A DNA stretch of 64,000 bases from Phocaeicola vulgatus ATCC 8482 (lineage in GTDB: Bacteria > Bacteroidota > Bacteroidia > Bacteroidales > Bacteroidaceae). The stretch covers positions 1,612,001 through 1,676,000 of the forward strand of contig NC_009614.1 of NCBI RefSeq assembly GCF_000012825.1, read 5' to 3'. Positions 31,435 to 39,848 of this stretch are shown piece by piece (the stretch's first letter is position 1; the number at the start of each line of letters is the position of its first letter). A model generated the notes under the pieces. The model made no database searches, was not told the origin of the DNA, and saw only the letters and a list, made by a program, of their open reading frames with translations. Made by a program: the position numbers and the translations under genes.

Positions 31435-32373
31435 ATGGTGGAATCAACTAGAGTAAGAAGTAAAAGATTATCCTTTTCAGGTAAGAAGACACTGTCTTCC
31501 TTTATGCAAGTGAATATTGCCAGTCTGAGACAATCGGGAAAATTGCGTACCAGTGAGACGTATAGAGCTACACTGAACAGTTTTATGAAATTTATGGATG
31601 GCAAGGATGTTCTGTTGAGCAATATGGATGCCGAGTTGATGATGGGGTATGAAACTTATTTAAAGGCGCAGGGAGCAAGTATGAACACCGTTTCTTTTTA
31701 TATGCGTATTTTGCGTGCAACGTATAATCGTGCAGTAGATAAAGGGGTGATCAGACAGCGTTTTCCTTTTAAGCACGTCTATACGGGAGTGGAAAAAACG
31801 GTGAAGCGGGCCATTTCTTTTAAAGTAATCAGACAACTGAAGGAGATGGATTTAAGTCACTCTCAGTCAATGGAGTTTGCGCGTGATATGTTTATGTTCA
31901 GCTTTTATACCCGGGGAATGTCATTTGTGGACATGGCTTTTCTTAAAAAAACAGATTTAAATAATGGTATGCTGACTTATAGAAGAAAGAAAACCGGTCA
32001 GTTGCTTTCCATCAGATGGGAGAAATGCATGCAGGATATAGTGGATAAATATCCCGGAAACTATTCGACTTATCTTCTTCCTATTATAATTCATATCAGG
32101 AAAGATGAAAGATTGCAATATAAAAATTCAATTTGCTTGGTGAACAGAAGGCTAAAAGAAATAGGGAAAAAGTTGGGGCTTGTTCATCCTTTGACTATGT
32201 ATGTGGCGCGCCATTCATGGGCCAGTGTTGCCAGAGGCAAACATATTCCTCTTTCTGTGATAAGTGAAGGGATGGGACATGATTCGGAAAAAACGACTTT
32301 GATTTATCTGGCAGCATTGGATACCACCGTGATAGACAAAGCGAATATGGTGGTGCTGAGGGAATTCTTGTGA
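31435..32373 (+). CDS. Tyrosine recombinase (phage-integrase family), probable DNA invertase
   Basis: 312 residues from MVESTRVRSKRLSFSG. N-terminal SAM-like core-binding domain (about 15-115; RTSETYRATLNSFMKF). Catalytic domain with Arg I (R160 in FYTRGMSF), box II Arg (R259 in YVARHSWAS), H-x-x-S-type motif GMGHDSEKTT, and nucleophile Y291 (TLIYLAAL). No integrated element, tRNA target or other phage genes adjoin, so it is a solitary recombinase of the kind that inverts nearby DNA in Bacteroides. A candidate substrate, a 26-bp inverted repeat, lies 520 bases downstream. The upstream frame to 31327 is rejected for lack of similarity. Confidence 0.88.
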   Translation: MVESTRVRSKRLSFSGKKTLSSFMQVNIASLRQSGKLRTSETYRATLNSFMKFMDGKDVLLSNMDAELMMGYETYLKAQGASMNTVSFYMRILRATYNRAVDKGVIRQRFPFKHVYTGVEKTVKRAISFKVIRQLKEMDLSHSQSMEFARDMFMFSFYTRGMSFVDMAFLKKTDLNNGMLTYRRKKTGQLLSIRWEKCMQDIVDKYPGNYSTYLLPIIIHIRKDERLQYKNSICLVNRRLKEIGKKLGLVHPLTMYVARHSWASVARGKHIPLSVISEGMGHDSEKTTLIYLAALDTTVIDKANMVVLREFL

Positions 32374-32895
32374 TAATAGGGTAAAGATATTGTTTCTTGT
32401 CAAAAAGAGGATATCATATCACAAGGTATCCTCCATTTGACGGGATCAGTGTGTCTAGTATTTTTTTATAAATGTGTGTTTGTTCTCTCTAAAGATGATA
32501 GCACTTTCTGATGTGGCTGAGTTGAATATGTTTGTTGCAAGGTCGGCACAGCCTATGATCTCTTTATTGTTATCTTTTGTCAGAAGATACCTTATAGTAA
32601 AGGAGAATCGGATTACAGATAGATTTTGAAACAATTGCCATAAACCATTATGCTGTTTTTGTCCACCTATTTGTTATGAAAAAAATATCAGCTTCCAAAT
32701 ATTCAATATTTTTCCGTAATATGACAATTGTCATAGGTTTGTTTTTTTATGTGAATTATAGCTGATACAACTATTTTTTAATAGACAAACTTGAATAAAA
32801 GAAAAGGCAAAGTTTACTTGGGTTTTATTCTTTGATTTTGGAGATAATCCTCTTATTACAAGAACTTTATAGAAAAAATACTAAGTTGGAATATT

Positions 32896-32921
32896 ATATA
32901 TCTCTTATTAAGAGATATATA
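32896..32921 (+). repeat. Left inverted repeat of a putative invertible promoter segment
   Basis: 26 bp with core ATCTCTTATTAAGAGATATA. It matches the reverse complement of 33082-33107 at 25 of 26 positions. The unit is itself near-palindromic, but the central base (T here, A in the right copy) shows that the two copies are inverted, not direct. Confidence 0.75.
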
Positions 32922-33081
32922 TTTTGTCGCAAATTTAAGCAAAGTTTTGAGAATTAGAACAATTTAGCAAGGAAATTTAATAATTGATTCAAAAAAAACG
33001 TTTTCTGAATACATGATTTAGTCTTTCAAAGTATTCTTGTGTGAATGTATTTTGTTGATTTATAATGTGTTATATATCTCT
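32922..33081. promoter_or_regulatory. Putative 160-bp invertible promoter segment
   Basis: AT-rich DNA between the two 26-bp inverted repeats, with no reading frame. The only exact TAnnTTTG element reads leftward (32930-32937, TAAATTTG on the minus strand, with TTG 22 bases upstream at 32960-32962). Inversion would move it to 33066-33073, pointing right, about 67 bases before the HTH gene at 33140. The rest of 32374-32895 shows only a weak hairpin (32407-32433). Confidence 0.6.
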
Positions 33082-33107
33082 TATATATCTCTTAATAAGA
33101 GATCTAT
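33082..33107 (-). repeat. Right inverted repeat of the putative invertible segment
   Basis: Reverse complement of 32896-32921 with one mismatch. An extra half-site ATATATCTCTTA (33072-33083) abuts it on the left, so the right end carries three half-sites. Confidence 0.75.
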
Positions 33108-33139
33108 CGTATAACTGATGACACGCCATATAATAATGT

Positions 33140-33679
33140 ATGGTTGTGAAGATGTTAAAGCGAAGATTAAAAGTAAATAAAAATATGGACTATCTATTCT
33201 TGAGACGACACAGACGGACTGCTACTTCGAATAGGCAGAAAAGCCTGCTTCTTAAGGCTGCTGAACGCCAGTGGGAACTACAGTTCGCCAATAAGGGGAC
33301 TGAAGGGAGAAAGGTGGATTGTGCCCTATATAAATGTATATTGTATAACCTTGAAATAAAGCAAGTTTTTTTGGATTCGGAGCTTTCTTTGAAAAAGTTT
33401 AGCGTTATGATAGACACCAACCAAACTTACCTGTCGAATGTGGTAAACAAGTATTTCAACTGCAATTTGAAGGAGTTGCTGAATACTTACCGTGTGGAAT
33501 ATGCCAAAGAGTTACTCCATGCTGGGAAATGTTCATTAGAAGAACTCCCACAGCGATGTGGCTTTGCCTCTAGAAGTGCTTTTTATGCCTCTTTTAGTAA
33601 AATAGTCGGAATGTCTCCTTTGCGCTTTCTAGCTCGAGAACAGAATAATTCGCTCTTAGAATCAATGATTTATGTATAA
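33140..33679 (+). CDS. AraC-type HTH regulator (small)
   Basis: 179 residues. A basic N-terminus (KRRLKVNKN; FLRRHRRTA) precedes a C-terminal AraC/XylS double HTH (about 85-170): SLKKFSVMIDTNQTYLSNVV is the first helix-turn-helix, and CSLEELPQRCGFASRSAFYA with FSKIVGMSPLRFLAREQ the second. There is no sensor domain. It lies 44 bases upstream of the S-layer-like gene in the same direction and just downstream of the putative invertible segment, so it could be read from the invertible promoter together with that gene. The ATG at 33140 or one at 33185 could be used. Confidence 0.8.
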   Translation: MVVKMLKRRLKVNKNMDYLFLRRHRRTATSNRQKSLLLKAAERQWELQFANKGTEGRKVDCALYKCILYNLEIKQVFLDSELSLKKFSVMIDTNQTYLSNVVNKYFNCNLKELLNTYRVEYAKELLHAGKCSLEELPQRCGFASRSAFYASFSKIVGMSPLRFLAREQNNSLLESMIYV

Positions 33680-33723: not shown

Positions 33724-34554
33724 ATGAACAAAAAGTTTTTAAGTGCAATCCTGTTTGGTGCCTTGATGGTTACCTCGACAGGAACATTTGTATCTTGTAA
33801 GGACTATGATGATGACATCGACAGCTTGAACGAGAAAGTGGACAAGCTGACTAAAGATTTGTCTGAATTACAGGCCGCAGCTGGAAAATATGTCACAGCT
33901 GTCAAGTATGATGCGGCAACAGGTAAGTTGACTGTTACCGGCGGTAACGGTGAAACTTTCCAACTTCCGATGCCTGCTGAACTTCCCACTTACTCTTTGA
34001 AAGTTGTAGATGGTAAGATACAGTTGTTAGATGGTGACAAGGTCGTTTCTGAAGCACCCCTGCCTACAACTGATGCTCCTGCGGCATTTGATCCTACTTT
34101 GTTGAAGTGGAACAATGGCTATCTGTATTATGGAGATGTAAAAATCTCAGGTGTAGAGAAACCTCAAAGCGTTGGTTCTATTACAGAAGTGAAAGATGAA
34201 GAAACTGGTGAGGTGATTGGCTATGTCATTGAACTAGATGGAAAATCTGCTACATTCTCTTTGGTTGCTGATTTGAAGGCGTTAGTATTCCAACCTGCAT
34301 TCTATTATCAGGGTATTGAAGCAATGGAAGCTATTGGTCTTAATTATAAAACCTTGACAGTAGCTAAAGTAGATGCAGATGGAAATTATGATAAGGATGC
34401 TCCTGTTGTAGGTGAAGCAACTACAATGATTCCGGACTTGGTAGCTGATTATCATGTAAATCCTACCGTAGCGAAAGTTCCAGGTGATGTAAAAGCATAT
34501 ACTTTCTTGCGTTATGACAAGAATTATACTCGTTCTGCTGCGACAGCGTAAGCG
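33724..34554 (+). pseudogene. S-layer-like surface lipoprotein, N-terminal fragment (cut by IS66)
   Basis: Lipoprotein signal MNKKFLSAILFGALMVTSTG with Cys25 in FVSCKDYDDD; the acidic residues after the Cys fit the Bacteroides surface-export signal. A short coiled coil (SLNEKVDKLTKDLSELQ) follows, then beta-rich repeats. The native frame runs to 34547, where IS66 begins; the IS itself supplies a TAA two bases later. Joined to 37086-39285 the intact gene is 3024 bases, 1007 residues, in frame. The N-terminus resembles, from memory, the phase-variable S-layer protein BT1927 of B. thetaiotaomicron and proteins annotated as PL29 N-terminal-domain proteins. Confidence 0.85.
34540..34547 (+). repeat. 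8-bp target-site duplication, left copy
   Basis: GCGACAGC, repeated exactly at 37078-37085. An 8-bp duplication is the IS66 family hallmark. Confidence 0.95.
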
Positions 34555-34623
34555 TCTCCGCGATTCTATCTTGTCGCCCTTTTTTCATTCTTATATTTTT
34601 GCCATATATAAAAATGAGGCATT

Positions 34624-35028
34624 ATGGATTTAGCAGAAAATCGATTTGGAAAAACCTGGAAACATTTCCTTGAAGTATTGAAAGTAGACTACAATTGTTC
34701 TTTAGCCGATGTTTGCCGTGATCAGCATACCACTCTTGGAGGTATGAGTTCCTGGATGTCCAGACGGGGTTATAGCGTTAAACAAGCCAAGGCGGATGTG
34801 GTCCGTGATTATTATGGCGGCGTTGAACCCTCCCGACCGACAACTTCCTCTCCTTCGTTCACTCAAATAGCCCCCGTCATGTTGTCGGAAGAAGAGTTTA
34901 GTCTTTCCGGGATCACAATCACCTTTAACAGCGGAACGACCATTTCGGTCAAACGGGCCACTCCCGGGGGTATTATTAAAATGTTACGCGATTACGAAAG
35001 AAAGGAGGGGGATCCATGTATTCTCTAA
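34624..35028 (+). CDS. tnpA: IS66 accessory protein TnpA-like
   Basis: 134 residues, first gene of the IS66 set. N-terminal helical DNA-binding-type region (LADVCRDQHTTLGGMSSWMS) and a beta-rich tail (GITITFNSGTTISVKRA) as in IS66 Orf1. It ends 13 bases inside the next gene, pointing to translational coupling. Confidence 0.85.
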   Translation: MDLAENRFGKTWKHFLEVLKVDYNCSLADVCRDQHTTLGGMSSWMSRRGYSVKQAKADVVRDYYGGVEPSRPTTSSPSFTQIAPVMLSEEEFSLSGITITFNSGTTISVKRATPGGIIKMLRDYERKEGDPCIL

Positions 35029-35366
35029 CATCAGCCAATCGCTACTATCTGTACCAGGGCTTTGTCCGTATGAACCTTGGCATTGACGGTTTATTCAAAA
35101 TCATACGCTCTCAAATGAAGGAGCTGTCCCCCATTTCCGGAGATATATTTTTATTCTTTGGCAAAAACCGGCAGAGTGTAAAAATACTGCGTTGGGATGG
35201 TGATGGCTTTCTCCTGTACTACAAGCGTCTGGAAGGTGGAAGTTTTGAGTTGCCGACATTTAACCCCCATACAGGCAATTATGAGATCTCTTATCAGGTT
35301 TTGTCTTTTATCTTAAATGGAGTGTCATTGAAGTCTGTACGGTTGCGAAAACGTTTTAGGATTTAA
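35016..35366 (+). CDS. tnpB: IS66 accessory protein TnpB
   Basis: 116 residues. It has the IS66 Orf2 pattern: RYYLYQGFVRMNLGIDGLFK, then DIFLFFGKNRQSVKILRWDG and GFLLYYKRLEGGSFELP. A purine-rich AGGAGGGGG lies just before the ATG, unusual in this window. Essential for transposition in characterised IS66 elements, mechanism unclear. Confidence 0.92.
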   Translation: MYSLTSANRYYLYQGFVRMNLGIDGLFKIIRSQMKELSPISGDIFLFFGKNRQSVKILRWDGDGFLLYYKRLEGGSFELPTFNPHTGNYEISYQVLSFILNGVSLKSVRLRKRFRI

Positions 35367-35452
35367 TGTAATATACTGTATATTAACTGTTTGATTTTAA
35401 ATTACCATCCGATTATTTTGGCCGACTCATTGATTTTTTGTATCTTTACGCC

Positions 35453-37018
35453 ATGAAAAAGGATGAGGTCATAGAGTTATTGAAGGAGCAAATCAAGGAG
35501 TTGCGGGATGATAACAACAGACTCCTGGACCAGATAGATGATTTGATAAAGGAGGTTTCTTCCCTTAAAGAGGCACTCCTTCAAAAAGGCGAATCTCTTG
35601 GCAAGCAACAGCGTCTTACCAAGGGGATCGCCAAACTTGTATCAAACACATCCGAACAGCAACAACCCCCTCAACCTGCATTGCCGGAGGAAGAGCGGCA
35701 GAAGAGAGAAGCAGAAAAAGCAGATAAGCGTAAAGCCAGAAAGAACAATGGGGCCAAACGTGACATGCATTATGAGATGGAGCAGGAGGAACATGACGTT
35801 TATCCCGACGATCCTGATTTTGACATCAATAAAGCCCGGCTGGTTACCACCGCTCCCAGAATATGTGTCCGCTATGAATGTGTACCCATGCGCTTCATCA
35901 AGCACGTCTACAAGATACACACCTACGCGCAAGACGGTTGTCTCTTTGAGGGAAAAACACCGGTCTCGGCTTTCTTGAATTCCAGCTATGACGGCTCATT
36001 CATTGCCGGGCTGATGGAATTGCGTTATATACAATCGCTACCGGTTGAAAGAATCATCAACTACTTCGAAAGTCATGGCTTTACGCTGAAGAAACCTACG
36101 GCTCATAAGTTGATGGAAAAAGCCTCAAGCCTCTTTGAAAATCTTTATAAGTGTATCCGGCAGACAGCTTTGAGTGATCCTTATAAGGCAGCCGACGAAA
36201 CCTATTACAAAATACTCGTCCCGGAAAAGAACAGCAAGGGAAAAGGAGTCCGCAAGGGATACCTCTGGGTGGTTGTGGGCATAAACACCAGGATGATATA
36301 CCTGCTCTATGATGACGGCTCCCGCTCTGAAAAAGTTATTCTTAACGAATTAGGCGGTTGCAAAGGTATCATACAAAGCGACGGATACTCACCTTACCGG
36401 AAACTCGAAAGCGATGCTTATCCCCATATCACACGCATTCCGTGCCTGCAACATATAAAACGGAAATTTATAGATTGCGGTGAGGATGACCCGGATGCAA
36501 AAAGAATCGTGGAGATGATAAACACACTTTATCAAAATGAACATAAGCATAAGATCGGGGTTGACGGATGGACGGTAGAACAGAATCTTGTCCATCGGAA
36601 AAAGTATGCGCCGGACATACTCGGAGAAATAAAAGATGTGCTTGATGATATAGAAGAACGGGGAGATTTGTTGCCTAAGAGCGAACTGAAGGAAGCTATC
36701 ACCTATCTTCGCAATGAGTGGAATGCCGTGGTGGACATCTTTAATTATGGTGACACTTACCTGGACAACAATATAGTTGAACGGATGAACCGCTACATAT
36801 CCTTATCAAGAAAAAACTCATTGTTCTTCGGCAGCCATAAGGGAGCCGAACGGGGCGCCATACTCTACACGATAGCACTTACTTGTAGGATGAATAAAGT
36901 GAATCTGTTTGAGTATCTCACGGATATCATAAACAGAACTGCCGAATGGCAACCGAATACACCACTGGAAAAATACAGGCAACTGCTTCCCGACAGATGG
37001 GAAAAGGCTAATGACTAA
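35453..37018 (+). CDS. tnpC: IS66-family transposase TnpC (DDE)
   Basis: 521 residues from MKKDEVIELLKEQIKEL. N-terminal coiled coil, basic low-complexity stretch, a domain with VRYECVPMRFIKHVYK, and the DDE catalytic domain (PYKAADETYYKIL; IIQSDGYSPYRKL; DNNIVERMNRYISLSRKNSL). The IS66 C-terminal segment FFGSHKGAERGAILYTI is present. The frame is complete, so the element should be able to move. Confidence 0.95.
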   Translation: MKKDEVIELLKEQIKELRDDNNRLLDQIDDLIKEVSSLKEALLQKGESLGKQQRLTKGIAKLVSNTSEQQQPPQPALPEEERQKREAEKADKRKARKNNGAKRDMHYEMEQEEHDVYPDDPDFDINKARLVTTAPRICVRYECVPMRFIKHVYKIHTYAQDGCLFEGKTPVSAFLNSSYDGSFIAGLMELRYIQSLPVERIINYFESHGFTLKKPTAHKLMEKASSLFENLYKCIRQTALSDPYKAADETYYKILVPEKNSKGKGVRKGYLWVVVGINTRMIYLLYDDGSRSEKVILNELGGCKGIIQSDGYSPYRKLESDAYPHITRIPCLQHIKRKFIDCGEDDPDAKRIVEMINTLYQNEHKHKIGVDGWTVEQNLVHRKKYAPDILGEIKDVLDDIEERGDLLPKSELKEAITYLRNEWNAVVDIFNYGDTYLDNNIVERMNRYISLSRKNSLFFGSHKGAERGAILYTIALTCRMNKVNLFEYLTDIINRTAEWQPNTPLEKYRQLLPDRWEKAND

Positions 37019-37077
37019 AAAGGGATCATTAGACTTTTTACTTTTAATATACTATATAGAATCGCGGAGACGCTTAC

Positions 37078-37085
37078 GCGACAGC
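37078..37085 (+). repeat. 8-bp target-site duplication, right copy
   Basis: GCGACAGC, identical to 34540-34547. Confidence 0.95.
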
Positions 37086-39285
37086 TCCGAAAGTAGTAAA
37101 AACTAATGTTACAAACGGTAAGGCCCCCAAGGGTATATTGACTGTAAATGCTCATTTTACAGATGCTGATATTAAGAACATTGAAAATGATGAGCAAGTA
37201 ACTGTATTAGCTTTGCAAGTAAGTAAGGGGGATACCGTTGTTACTTCTGATTATGCTGCTGTTAAGGCTGCTTATTACAAGGACTTGGTATTGGCAGCTG
37301 TAGATAGTATTCATGCAAATGACCGCCACTTGTTTACAACTGCTGCTGAAGCTATTGCTGATAATGAACATGTTTGCAAGATTGTCTGGAACAGCAATGG
37401 TATCGATATTGCTCGTTTGGTCAATACTCACAGAACTAATATAGATAAAGAAGGTACACATTCAAAATGGGATGTTCGTGCTGCTGATGGTACTGTAGAA
37501 AAATATGGTTTCAAATATTCTTACGAATTAGTTGGTTATCATAAAGGTAATAACGAAACTTCAGAAAGTGCTCATGCTGCATTGAAGGGTTCTGTTATTC
37601 GTCCTCAGATGACAAGTGGTGGTAAGCAGCAACCTTGGGGATTTACTCAGAATAAAGCTACAAAAGATCGTGAACCGTTGGTTCGTGTTATCTTGACTGA
37701 TACTATTAGCGGAAAAATAGCTTCTGTTGGTTATTTAAAATTCAAGATTACCGATACTGCTAATCAGAATGAAGTTGTATTGACCCCGAATTTCCCATTT
37801 GCCAATGGTTATACTGTTGATTGTACAGAAACAGAGACTAAACTTGGTTTGTCATGGCATCAAGTTGAAGAACAGATTCTGGCTCAATTGGAAGAAATTG
37901 GTATTTCTAAGGATGAATTCCATAAGAATTTCAAATTGGATGGTGCTGTAGAAGACGTAGAGCAACAAGCTTTGGTAAATGCTACTCAGTATGATGGAAT
38001 TACTGTTGATTCTAAGGCTGTTACTACTCCGGTTGGTGTGGTTTCACAGACTAATTGGGATCCGGCGGATGAAATGACTGAAGTTTTGACTTGGGTAGTT
38101 AAGAATAATCAGGCATATCACATCTTTAAGGCTGGTGCTAAGAGTATTGCAGTAAATGTACGTTATAGCTATGAAGTATCTGAAGGTGTATATCAATATG
38201 TATATGTTACTTTCACTTGGACTCCTAGTCCTTTGAACTTTACTCCTAATGGTACCATTGAAAACTCTGCTAAGATTGATAAATATTGGTATGAAAAGAA
38301 CGGTGCTGTAGCAGGTTCTGGTTATTCAGATATCCATGCTAATGTTCATCAAGTTGTTAGCGATAACTCTAATGATTGTACATTTGATAGCGAAATCTTG
38401 AATACTTTCACTGGTAATGTGATTACCGTGACAAGTGACGCTACTTATCCTGCATTTGCTAATGATAAGTTGACTAAGGAAGTTGTATTTGCTAACCCTC
38501 AAGATCATTTGACTAAGAAGGGAACTGCTTATGTCGTGAATGGTGCTTCTGGTGCTCAATATGATATCACTGTATCTGCTGATGGAAAAACTCTACAAGC
38601 TACTAATAACGCTGTACCAAAAGCAGTTGTTGTTCTTGCTGGAACAGTGATGGAATATCAAGAAAATGATTTTGCAAAAGATATTTTGAACAATGCAGAT
38701 CACAACTTGCTGGGACAAGACCAGACATTTACTGCTAAATTGCAAATTAATGCTGCTAACTGCGATTATGTAGATTATGCTTTGGGTAACAACGTATTCT
38801 ATGCTAAATATTTGCGTCCTGTATCAGTAGATCCGTCAGATGTAGATGAATTAATTGATGCTACTAATGGTGCTTCTATTGCAGGCTTGACCTTGAATCT
38901 GATTGATTGGAGAGACAAGTATTTTGATAAAGCAGAAGATACTACTGGTGATGATGGTAAGAAATATAATTTCTATGGATTTTATGGCGTAACTAAAGTT
39001 GCTGCTGATATTGAAAACGCTACAACAACTTTGAATGGTGGAACATTAGGTTCTACTAAATTATCTTCTGTAACGAAGAATGTAAAATTGTATTTCGGTG
39101 AAGATAAATCTACAACCAATGTATTTACTGCTCTGAAGGTTGGCGATAATGGTAAATTCTATTATTACAATAATGGTACTACTTTAGGTAAGTTTACAAT
39201 CCGCGTTCCGCTGGAAGTTACTTATAAGTGGGGTACTATCTATACCGAAGTTGATTTGAATATCAATAAGACTATTCAGAACTAA
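37086..39285 (+). pseudogene. S-layer-like surface lipoprotein, C-terminal fragment
   Basis: The rest of the interrupted gene: about 733 residues, starting (T)APKVVKTNVTNGKAPKGILT. Beta-rich with repeated Asn/Thr/Ala-rich strands (TFTWTPSPLNFTPNG, VTYKWGTIYTEVDLNINKTI) and few Cys. Strong preference for GCT, GGT, ACT and GTT codons, unlike the neighbours, suggests a very highly expressed gene. Without its signal peptide it cannot reach the surface even if an internal start were used. A strong terminator follows at 39316. Confidence 0.85.
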
Positions 39286-39368: not shown

Positions 39369-39848
39369 ATGAAAAAACTGAAATTTATTTTATTGTTGAC
39401 TGTTTTATTAACAACCTTTTCTTGTCAATCAGGAAAACAGAAGGTGCAAAGCAAAGAAGAGAAGAGTATTAATGAATTTGTAGCTCATCTAACGGAAGTT
39501 GATACGGTTTTGATAACAAACCTAATAAATCAATTTATGGAATATGCGAAAAATGGTCAGCTGGAATCTGCCGCAGCTATGCTTTATAAAGCCGATTCGG
39601 CAGATGTTTGGAATGAACCTATTCAATTGGATAACAATGAATTGCATCAAGTCGCAAAAATGATGGAATCTTTTCCTGTATTAAGTTATAAGATAGATTA
39701 TATAAAGTTCTATACTCCTGTTAAAAACGAGGTGAAGTGCACGATTGTTATGCAGAAAGGAGAAAGTGGAACACCTATTGCAACTAGTAGTTGGTATTTT
39801 AAGCTGATGAATTATTTGGGTGGATGGCGGCTTTGTATGATGAATTAG
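39369..39848 (+). CDS. Small lipoprotein of unknown function downstream of the S-layer-like gene
   Basis: 159 residues. Lipoprotein signal MKKLKFILLLTVLLTTFSCQ (Cys19). A helical part (VDTVLITNLINQFMEYAKNG) and a beta half (KNEVKCTIVMQKGESG) ending SWYFKLMNYLGGWRLCMMN resemble NTF2-like or DUF4878-type small periplasmic proteins, but I do not recognise the family with certainty. It lies 83 bases past the S-layer-like stop with a terminator between, so read-through expression at most. A role linked to the surface layer is a guess from position. Confidence 0.6.
   Translation: MKKLKFILLLTVLLTTFSCQSGKQKVQSKEEKSINEFVAHLTEVDTVLITNLINQFMEYAKNGQLESAAAMLYKADSADVWNEPIQLDNNELHQVAKMMESFPVLSYKIDYIKFYTPVKNEVKCTIVMQKGESGTPIATSSWYFKLMNYLGGWRLCMMN

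Follow-up and report, generated by a model that had tools for sequence, protein, structure and literature searches.

A candidate invertible promoter, OFF as assembled, upstream of an AraC-type regulator gene and an interrupted S-layer-type gene in Phocaeicola vulgatus

Introduction

Does a short AT-rich interval between two inverted repeats in the genome of Phocaeicola vulgatus act as an invertible promoter of surface genes, and, if so, which enzyme turns it and does it still turn? The question arises in the window, the whole 64,000-nucleotide stretch analysed here (bases 1,612,001-1,676,000 of a single-contig genome of 5,163,189 bases, G000). The initial annotation of the window proposed a phase-variable promoter in the interval but included neither the IS66 insertion, the four sister switches and the palindromic structure of the sites nor the probable start codon of the downstream regulator gene, all of which are described below.

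Results

Architecture of the switch locus

The arms bordering the interval (32896-32921 and 33082-33107) match as reverse complements in 25 of their 26 positions, as originally described, and they form the only pair of this kind in the window (26 nt, at least 25 matches, 60-600 nt apart), while 40 first-order Markov resamples of the window yielded none. An inverted-repeat finder called the repeat at 31 nt and 90% (32891-32921/33082-33112). Each arm is itself a near-palindrome of the plan ATCTCTT-NNN-AAGAGAT with extended arms (7-3-7), the 27-mers at 32895-32921 and 33082-33108 being self-palindromic at 26 and 22 of 27 positions, respectively, and for this reason the two sites would fit direct repeats nearly as well. 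The earlier call of an inverted rather than direct arrangement, made from the central base, is nevertheless right: the left site is centred on ATT and the right one on AAT, and a centre of odd length is never its own reverse complement and so gives the site its direction. The features of the locus are collected in Table 1.

Table 1. Features of the switch locus in window coordinates, and further candidate invertible promoters of the same genome in locus coordinates
Feature	Position	Strand	Remarks
Tyrosine recombinase, presumed invertase	31435..32373	+	Open frame from 31327, first ATG 31435
Left recombination site (putative)	32895..32921	.	TATATATCTCTT-ATT-AAGAGATATATA
Invertible segment (putative)	32922..33081	.	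160 bp, no gene
-7 element TAAATTTG	32930..32937	-	In a block resembling those of the sister loci
Extra half-site copy TATATATCTCTTA	33071..33083	+	Just inside the right site
Right recombination site (putative)	33082..33108	.	TATATATCTCTT-AAT-AAGAGATCTATC; inverted relative to the left site by its centre triplet
AraC-type HTH regulator	33185..33679	+	Pfam HTH_18, 6.2e-15; open frame from 33140
S-layer-type lipoprotein gene, 5' part	33724..34547	+	Frame continues to a stop at 34551 within the IS
IS66-family element	34548..37077	+	ORFs 34624-35028, 35016-35366, 35438-37018
S-layer-type gene, 3' part	37086..39285	+	Open frame
Further candidate invertible promoters	L178 4874-5065; L179 4028-4229; L180 6607-6932		
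Further candidate invertible promoters	L181 5675-5998; L182 4053-4357 and 11671-11938		

The segment is AT-rich and frame-less, as had been stated, with 23.7% GC against 43% for the window. Its single exact TAnnTTTG lies on the minus strand and reads left, which corresponds to the OFF state, and mirroring about the two sites confirmed the position predicted for the flipped element, 33066-33073. The promoter was called by consensus and conservation; scans for sigma-70 promoters and terminators returned nothing useful. In an alignment of three species, namely P. vulgatus, P. sartorii (G229) and the nearest relative seen (G159, 5.6 Mb, which we take to be probably P. dorei), both site cores are conserved and the promoter half is nearly identical, while the far end of the segment varies. 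The extra half-site is missing in G159, where the spacing of the sites is unchanged; both G159 and G229 have other bases at these positions, as if a site copy had overwritten a short stretch in P. vulgatus.

The HTH and S-layer-like genes reported downstream are both there, but the S-layer-type gene is split by an IS66-family element, flanked by an 8-bp target duplication GCGACAGC (34540-34547 and 37078-37085) and encoding the transposase families TnpB_IS66 (6.3e-29) and DDE_Tnp_IS66 (1e-74), its first ORF having no Pfam family. A full protein is therefore impossible at this locus in this strain, whatever the promoter state, and the ON state would yield the regulator and a truncated lipoprotein. 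The S-layer-type query set matched the window gene and the genes at the sister switches, and the gene that follows (39369-39848) gave sub-threshold matches only. The earlier estimate that the flipped transcript would begin about 60 bases before the HTH gene needs revision: conservation in the two closest relatives extends to the ATG at 33185 and not to that at 33140, so that the gene probably starts at 33185 and the leader predicted after a flip would then be about 105 nt.

Five switches in the genome

A relaxed site search returned nine sites, and inspection of the sequence established five pairs with a spacing of 187-189 bp, the five segments being located at G000:C1 1465230, 1644900, 1795931, 1854836 and 1958237; a reversed control pattern was matched nowhere in the same genome. 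In every one of the five, the two centre triplets are reverse complements (ATT/AAT in the window, and AGT/ACT, ACC/GGT, AGT/ACT and GAT/ATC). The single TAnnTTTG of each segment is located at the end distal to the AraC-type and S-layer-type genes, which makes all five switches OFF as assembled. The 16-kb stretches around the four sister switches contained no relative of the window recombinase; if these switches are mobile, the enzyme would therefore act on them from a distance. At three of the five loci the sites are palindromic several bases past the core, with arms that differ between the left and right sites.

A sixth pair of regulator and S-layer-type genes lies at L213 4393-8058 (G000:C1, about 1,718,392-1,722,057), the regulator being AraC-type by DNA similarity to the sister loci. 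No paired 7-3-7 site was found at L213; a single TACTTTTG is located upstream, oriented toward the genes, and the locus may be a copy with a fixed promoter. In addition, six more candidates for invertible promoters occur in the same genome (Table 1); all of them adjoin a tyrosine recombinase, and one end of each carries a -7 element.

A wider class of sites

When 84,980 genomes, one for each species, were scanned for two sites 175-205 bp apart, 104 stretches were returned (L023-L126); records near the window's own genome may be missing from this set. Together with the five own loci these provide 112 pairs, mostly from Bacteroidales, the shared L061 site being counted twice, and the centre triplets are reverse-complementary in 110 of them; the two exceptions, with direct triplets, are from Flavobacteriaceae (L084) and Bacillus australimaris (L123). 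A set of 114 pairs was formed by leaving out the L084 and L123 pairs, five duplicates and the wider L061 pair and by adding six G159 pairs and others not repeated. This set comprises 21 triplet classes, for which random pairing of sites would give 7.0% reverse-complementary pairs. In 109 of the 114 pairs a -7 element is present no more than 50 bp to the inside of one site and of one only (neither site in four, both in one), and the distance from the start of the element to the core is 20-23 nt for 102 of 113 elements. Between P. vulgatus/G159 and P. sartorii, two orthologous loci exhibit compensatory double changes, from ACC/GGT to ACT/AGT and from AGT/ACT to GGT/ACC, respectively.

Two other proposals on the sites were abandoned. 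A private triplet for each locus, as insulation against cross-talk, is unsupported, as two of the five own loci are both AGT/ACT and so are all P. massiliensis and P. faecalis pairs of the 112-pair set. The AGT/ACT switches are L023, L024, L026, L051, L062, L077, L086 and L091 in P. massiliensis (G061) and L053, L063, L074, L082, L092, L095 and L117 in P. faecalis (G047); many segments are near-identical, and exchange between loci within these genomes is possible. Symmetric arms did not emerge as a general feature either, the excess over the 112 pairs being slight (identity of 0.56 versus 0.54 at positions -1 to -6; within-site symmetry in 51 pairs versus 30, with 31 ties).

Spacings between 175 and 205 bp, the range searched, fall into clusters at 175-178, 183-190 and 195-199 bp. 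The best period is 11.1 bp, with a resultant of 0.63 for 103 pairs and 0.55 for the 84 pairs left after removal of similar segments; in 99.9% of simulations with uniform spacing the resultant was below about 0.35 and 0.38, respectively. Outside this range, phase agreement was assessed in 13 pairs, every one with matched triplets, that came from among the matches listed and from L154 and L164, and gave one-sided p values of 0.0014 at a period of 11.0, 0.0001 at 11.5 and 0.11 at 10.5; with a matched pair of G034 (630 bp apart) added, p was 0.003 at 11.0 and 0.11 at 10.5. With spacings of 276 and 279 bp, the site pairs of L154 and L164 (G259) exceed the usual range. The likeliest explanation of this quantised spacing of about 11 bp is a helically phased loop at synapsis, and a promoter constraint or shared ancestry could contribute to the pattern. 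A helical spacing of invertible promoters was not found described in the literature searched.

The recombinase and its relatives

The tyrosine recombinase noted about 520 bp upstream of the switch is indeed present, its frame ending at 32373 (Pfam Phage_int_SAM_5, 1e-19; Phage_integrase, 1.2e-6). It matches the solved XerA-type structures 4a8e and 5hxy weakly, with XerA-like box II and tyrosine regions. The P. sartorii ortholog is 93% identical and is located beside the same switch; the frame of the ortholog is free of stops in G229 and G202 and is broken by three internal stops in G159 and G205. Despite the broken ortholog, G159 and G205 keep six site pairs and one, respectively, from which it follows that either a second recombinase must serve these sites or those switches are now still. 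With six pairs retained in G159, the window recombinase is not the sole conceivable actor.

The fetched loci contain 36 recombinase frames. Of these, 23 (the window gene counted twice) score 280-768 bits and are all found beside CTCTT-type sites (ATCTCTT, TTCTCTT, CACTCTT/CTCTCTA or CTCTCTT/TTTCTAT), and 13 score below 200 bits, of which two (192 and 163 bits) are beside GTTACTT-NNN-AAGTAAC and 11 have no pair passing the rule, an association that arises partly by selection as most loci were fetched for their ATCTCTT pairs. Free of this selection are the ten best paralogs after the window gene in the own genome: four at 48-52% identity are associated with CTCTT-type pairs and those at 35% and 34% with GTTACTT pairs, the others having none. 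Among the family genomes, all 24 with at least two exact sites have a relative of the recombinase (E <= 1e-84) as against 71 of 225 others, and outside the genus the figures are 16 of 16 and 50 of 195, these counts ignoring relatedness. The type of recombinase goes with the type of site.

Relation to described switches

Parabacteroides distasonis reportedly has several S-layer glycoproteins, each behind an invertible promoter, in work attributed to Fletcher et al. in 2007. Mpi-type switches depend on a serine recombinase, whereas the gene adjoining the window switch encodes a tyrosine recombinase. A close likeness is seen with the S-layer loci of Bacteroides thetaiotaomicron (BT1927 and homologs), for which the texts of PMC12118408, PMC12548429 and PMC12578637 describe an invertible promoter, palindromic repeats with the consensus CCGTTACCTABVRAGTAAC and an integrase nearby; according to the text of PMC12548429, BT1927 is ON in about 1 cell in 1,000, and OFF is the majority state. 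The switches described here share with them a (here predicted) invertible promoter, repeats that fit the 7-3-7 plan, the nearby integrase, the S-layer lipoprotein and the mostly OFF state. They differ in the half-site, which is ATCTCTT here and GTTACYT in B. thetaiotaomicron, the published consensus having no counterpart at the sites here, and in the AraC-type gene between switch and S-layer-type gene, which is seen here, unlike in B. thetaiotaomicron. BT1927-type switches further include an outer-membrane partner gene, BT1926.

Relatives of the S-layer-type protein of one sister switch (at 1,959,097) were searched for in 249 family genomes, with three candidates scored per genome, and were found in 64, mostly over the first 100 residues. 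Among 30 such loci fetched, a GTTAC-type pair lies just upstream in four (L200, L207, L210 and L212) and an ATCTCTT-type pair is present in four (L183, L184, L191 and L196), the remaining 22 having no pair by the rule. The proteins at the four GTTAC-type loci match the sister protein at 37-45% over the first 93-129 residues. The repeats of L207, L210 and L212 fit the B. thetaiotaomicron consensus over 17 bases and that of L200 differs at one, and the sites at these four loci are 284-326 bp apart, as against 187-189 bp in the genome studied here. The recombinases differ likewise, the neighbours of GTTACTT pairs scoring 192 and 163 bits to the window enzyme and those of CTCTT-type pairs at least 280. 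The putative name S-layer is given by kinship only, with the sister-protein homologs behind GTTAC-type pairs, and no solved structure resembled the sister protein at E <= 0.1.

Action of one enzyme on several switches has a precedent in Tsr19 (BF2766) of Bacteroides fragilis, which, as the text of PMC4747536 describes, adjoins one invertible promoter and acts also on a distant one (IVp-I and IVp-II), with the -7 element TAnnTTTG, one orientation of IVp-I being rare in culture. The present locus resembles this system in having a tyrosine recombinase beside one switch, a TAnnTTTG promoter and probably one rare orientation, and differs from it in its targets, which for Tsr19 are given in the same text as an exopolysaccharide operon and a cluster linked to outer-membrane vesicles. 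For strain CL10 of P. vulgatus, the same species as here, the main text of PMC13114119 reports inversion of a polysaccharide promoter between inverted repeats, shown by PCR, with a defective adjoining recombinase gene and another enzyme presumed to act; that switch drives a upxY polysaccharide locus, and the S-layer is absent from the main text. In P. dorei, invertible regions that differ in orientation in IBD, including promoters of PUL and polysaccharide loci, are presented in the text of PMC10939037, and some of the five regions may already be listed in that paper. The text of PMC11892184 contains neither 'vulgatus' nor 'S-layer', and among the papers listed by a literature search for the half-sites ATCTCTT and AAGAGAT, the only one with these letters concerns Salmonella. 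The kind of switch and the surface gene are known, and the site and the recombinase type differ. The site class and the spacing rule were not found described in the main texts searched, and the five regions may have been listed earlier, for instance in an inverton catalogue of 2019.

Evidence for and against inversion

In 382 comparisons in which both the segment and a flank could be aligned, the orientation was the same in 371 and opposite in 11; three of the latter are backed by both flanks and eight by one flank, some through short matches. The segment of L116 is reversed relative to that of L121, with 90% identity over 184 nt and both flanks in register. The segment of L037 is also reversed relative to L121 (94% over 182 nt), the right flank of L037 diverging after about 35 bases, and the third inversion backed by both flanks, L043 versus L044, is weak. 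L116, L037 and L121 are from Muribaculaceae, and in their alignment the left flank stays in register through the left site and identical bases follow the right site, while the L121 segment is reversed. The inner arms, TTAATT and TTAGGT, are carried along with the segment and the outer arms keep their places, so that the exchange maps within the 17-bp core.

Among the 15 callable loci that adjoin relatives of the recombinase, 12 have the promoter directed toward the recombinase and three have it directed away. Pairs at most 200 bases from a contig end numbered 9 of 78, with 1.5 expected (one pair was taken per stretch, from L023-L102 except L082 and L084, which makes 78 out of 104 stretches); such an excess is what mixed orientations would cause, and near-identical segments within a genome could produce it too.

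All 26 AraC/S-layer switches callable by the AraC rule are OFF and none was seen ON, the other 88 of the 114 pairs not being callable by this rule. A search of the genus (61 genomes, 10 with matches) provided 29 new loci, of which the 21 with an AraC-type or S-layer-type neighbour are likewise all OFF, many of these being loci already counted, and eight have no such neighbour. No flipped copy of the window locus was found, the G159 and G229 orthologs being oriented alike. Two pattern scans of viral contigs gave no match, and AraC homologs in viral contigs gave five pattern matches, none of which was confirmed.

Orientation across relatives had been set beforehand as the refuting test, and the S-layer-type loci of Phocaeicola, being all OFF where callable, speak against flipping. 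We give the family-wide evidence more weight than this uniformity, because OFF is also the majority state of the B. thetaiotaomicron S-layer; the all-OFF pattern would fit a rarely ON switch and also a locked one. The original reading of the locus as a Bacteroides phase-variable layout in the OFF state is supported by the matched triplets (110 of 112), the compensatory changes, the presence of both orientations in Muribaculaceae and the two promoter directions seen beside recombinases.

Discussion

It appears highly probable that the 160 bp between the sites form a promoter that is inverted by site-specific recombination, that a tyrosine recombinase drives this inversion and that surface genes are the targets; the assembly shows the switch OFF. 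That it actively flips at the window locus itself is likely, with somewhat less assurance. Under the proposed mechanism, a tyrosine recombinase, most likely the adjoining one, would bind the two palindromic sites and pair them across a short loop, and strand exchange inside the ATCTCTT-NNN-AAGAGAT core would then invert the promoter. The odd centre triplet would orient the otherwise palindromic sites, such that their pairing would favour inversion over deletion. In the OFF state, as assembled, the promoter reads left, toward the recombinase. A flip would bring the -7 element to a distance of about 21 bp from the core of the right site, on its upstream side; the ON transcript would then begin just before the right-site hairpin, at about 33080, and extend through the genes for the AraC-type regulator and the S-layer-type lipoprotein. 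We infer the action of the window recombinase at the window and the four sister loci, as well as flipping in this strain and the transcript start.

The alternatives differ widely in plausibility. A chance inverted repeat would suit AT-rich DNA, the segment having 24% GC and arms rich in TA steps, but it is refuted by the sister loci and its probability is close to nil: no such repeat arose in the 40 resampled windows, and the genome has five similarly built loci while the reversed control pattern is unmatched. If the palindromes were instead operators of a DNA-looping regulator, such as an AraC-type protein, the palindromic sites, the regulator gene next door and the spacing periodicity of about 11 bp would all be accounted for; looping operators, however, have no need for reverse-complementary, co-varying centre triplets, the segment is found inverted in relatives, and no more than 26 of the 114 pairs were called as having an outward AraC-type gene, with recombinases beside others, which makes this explanation very improbable. 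A fossil deserves more weight, although it too is unlikely. In this scenario a switch that formerly inverted has become locked OFF in P. vulgatus and close relatives, and its surface gene is now broken by IS66, as would agree with the same orientation in G000, G159 and G229, the 26 of 26 callable S-layer-type switches in the OFF state, the interrupted S-layer-type gene and the recombinase ortholog with three stops in G159 and G205. It is opposed by the retention of site cores and promoter half in three species against a variable far end, by triplets at sister loci that are still changing in matched pairs, and by a recombinase without stops in G000, G229 and G202.

A further alternative concerns the actor rather than the switch. 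The adjacent enzyme is the moderately favoured actor at the window switch, and it is conceivable, if rather doubtful, that another recombinase of the genome works it, such as the 52%-identical one at 3,734,628, which has no stops and whose own switch, TTCTCTT-AGT-AAGAGAT, has the TCTCTT core in common with the window sites. The six site pairs of G159 beside a broken ortholog of the adjacent enzyme point the same way, whereas the adjacent enzyme is intact here and in P. sartorii, and its gene, intact or broken, stays by this switch in three species.

Beyond the single locus, we tentatively propose a distinct class of Bacteroidales switch, with 7-3-7 sites, matched odd triplets and spacing quantised at about 11 bp through a helically phased loop of about 14 to 25 turns, together with a solitary recombinase that may master five S-layer-type switches, all OFF by default as a silent coat reserve; this broader picture is put forward at slightly below even confidence. 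Surface switches of Bacteroidales are usually found via reads that exhibit both orientations, and a rule based on sequence alone (matched odd triplets, fixed promoter offset and phased spacing) would make silent, rarely flipping switches predictable without reads. The rule also ties the site class to a recombinase subfamily and makes site pairing testable. Several silent S-layer-type coats are thereby indicated in a common human gut bacterium, and related coats change phage sensitivity in B. thetaiotaomicron, as described in the text of PMC12548429.
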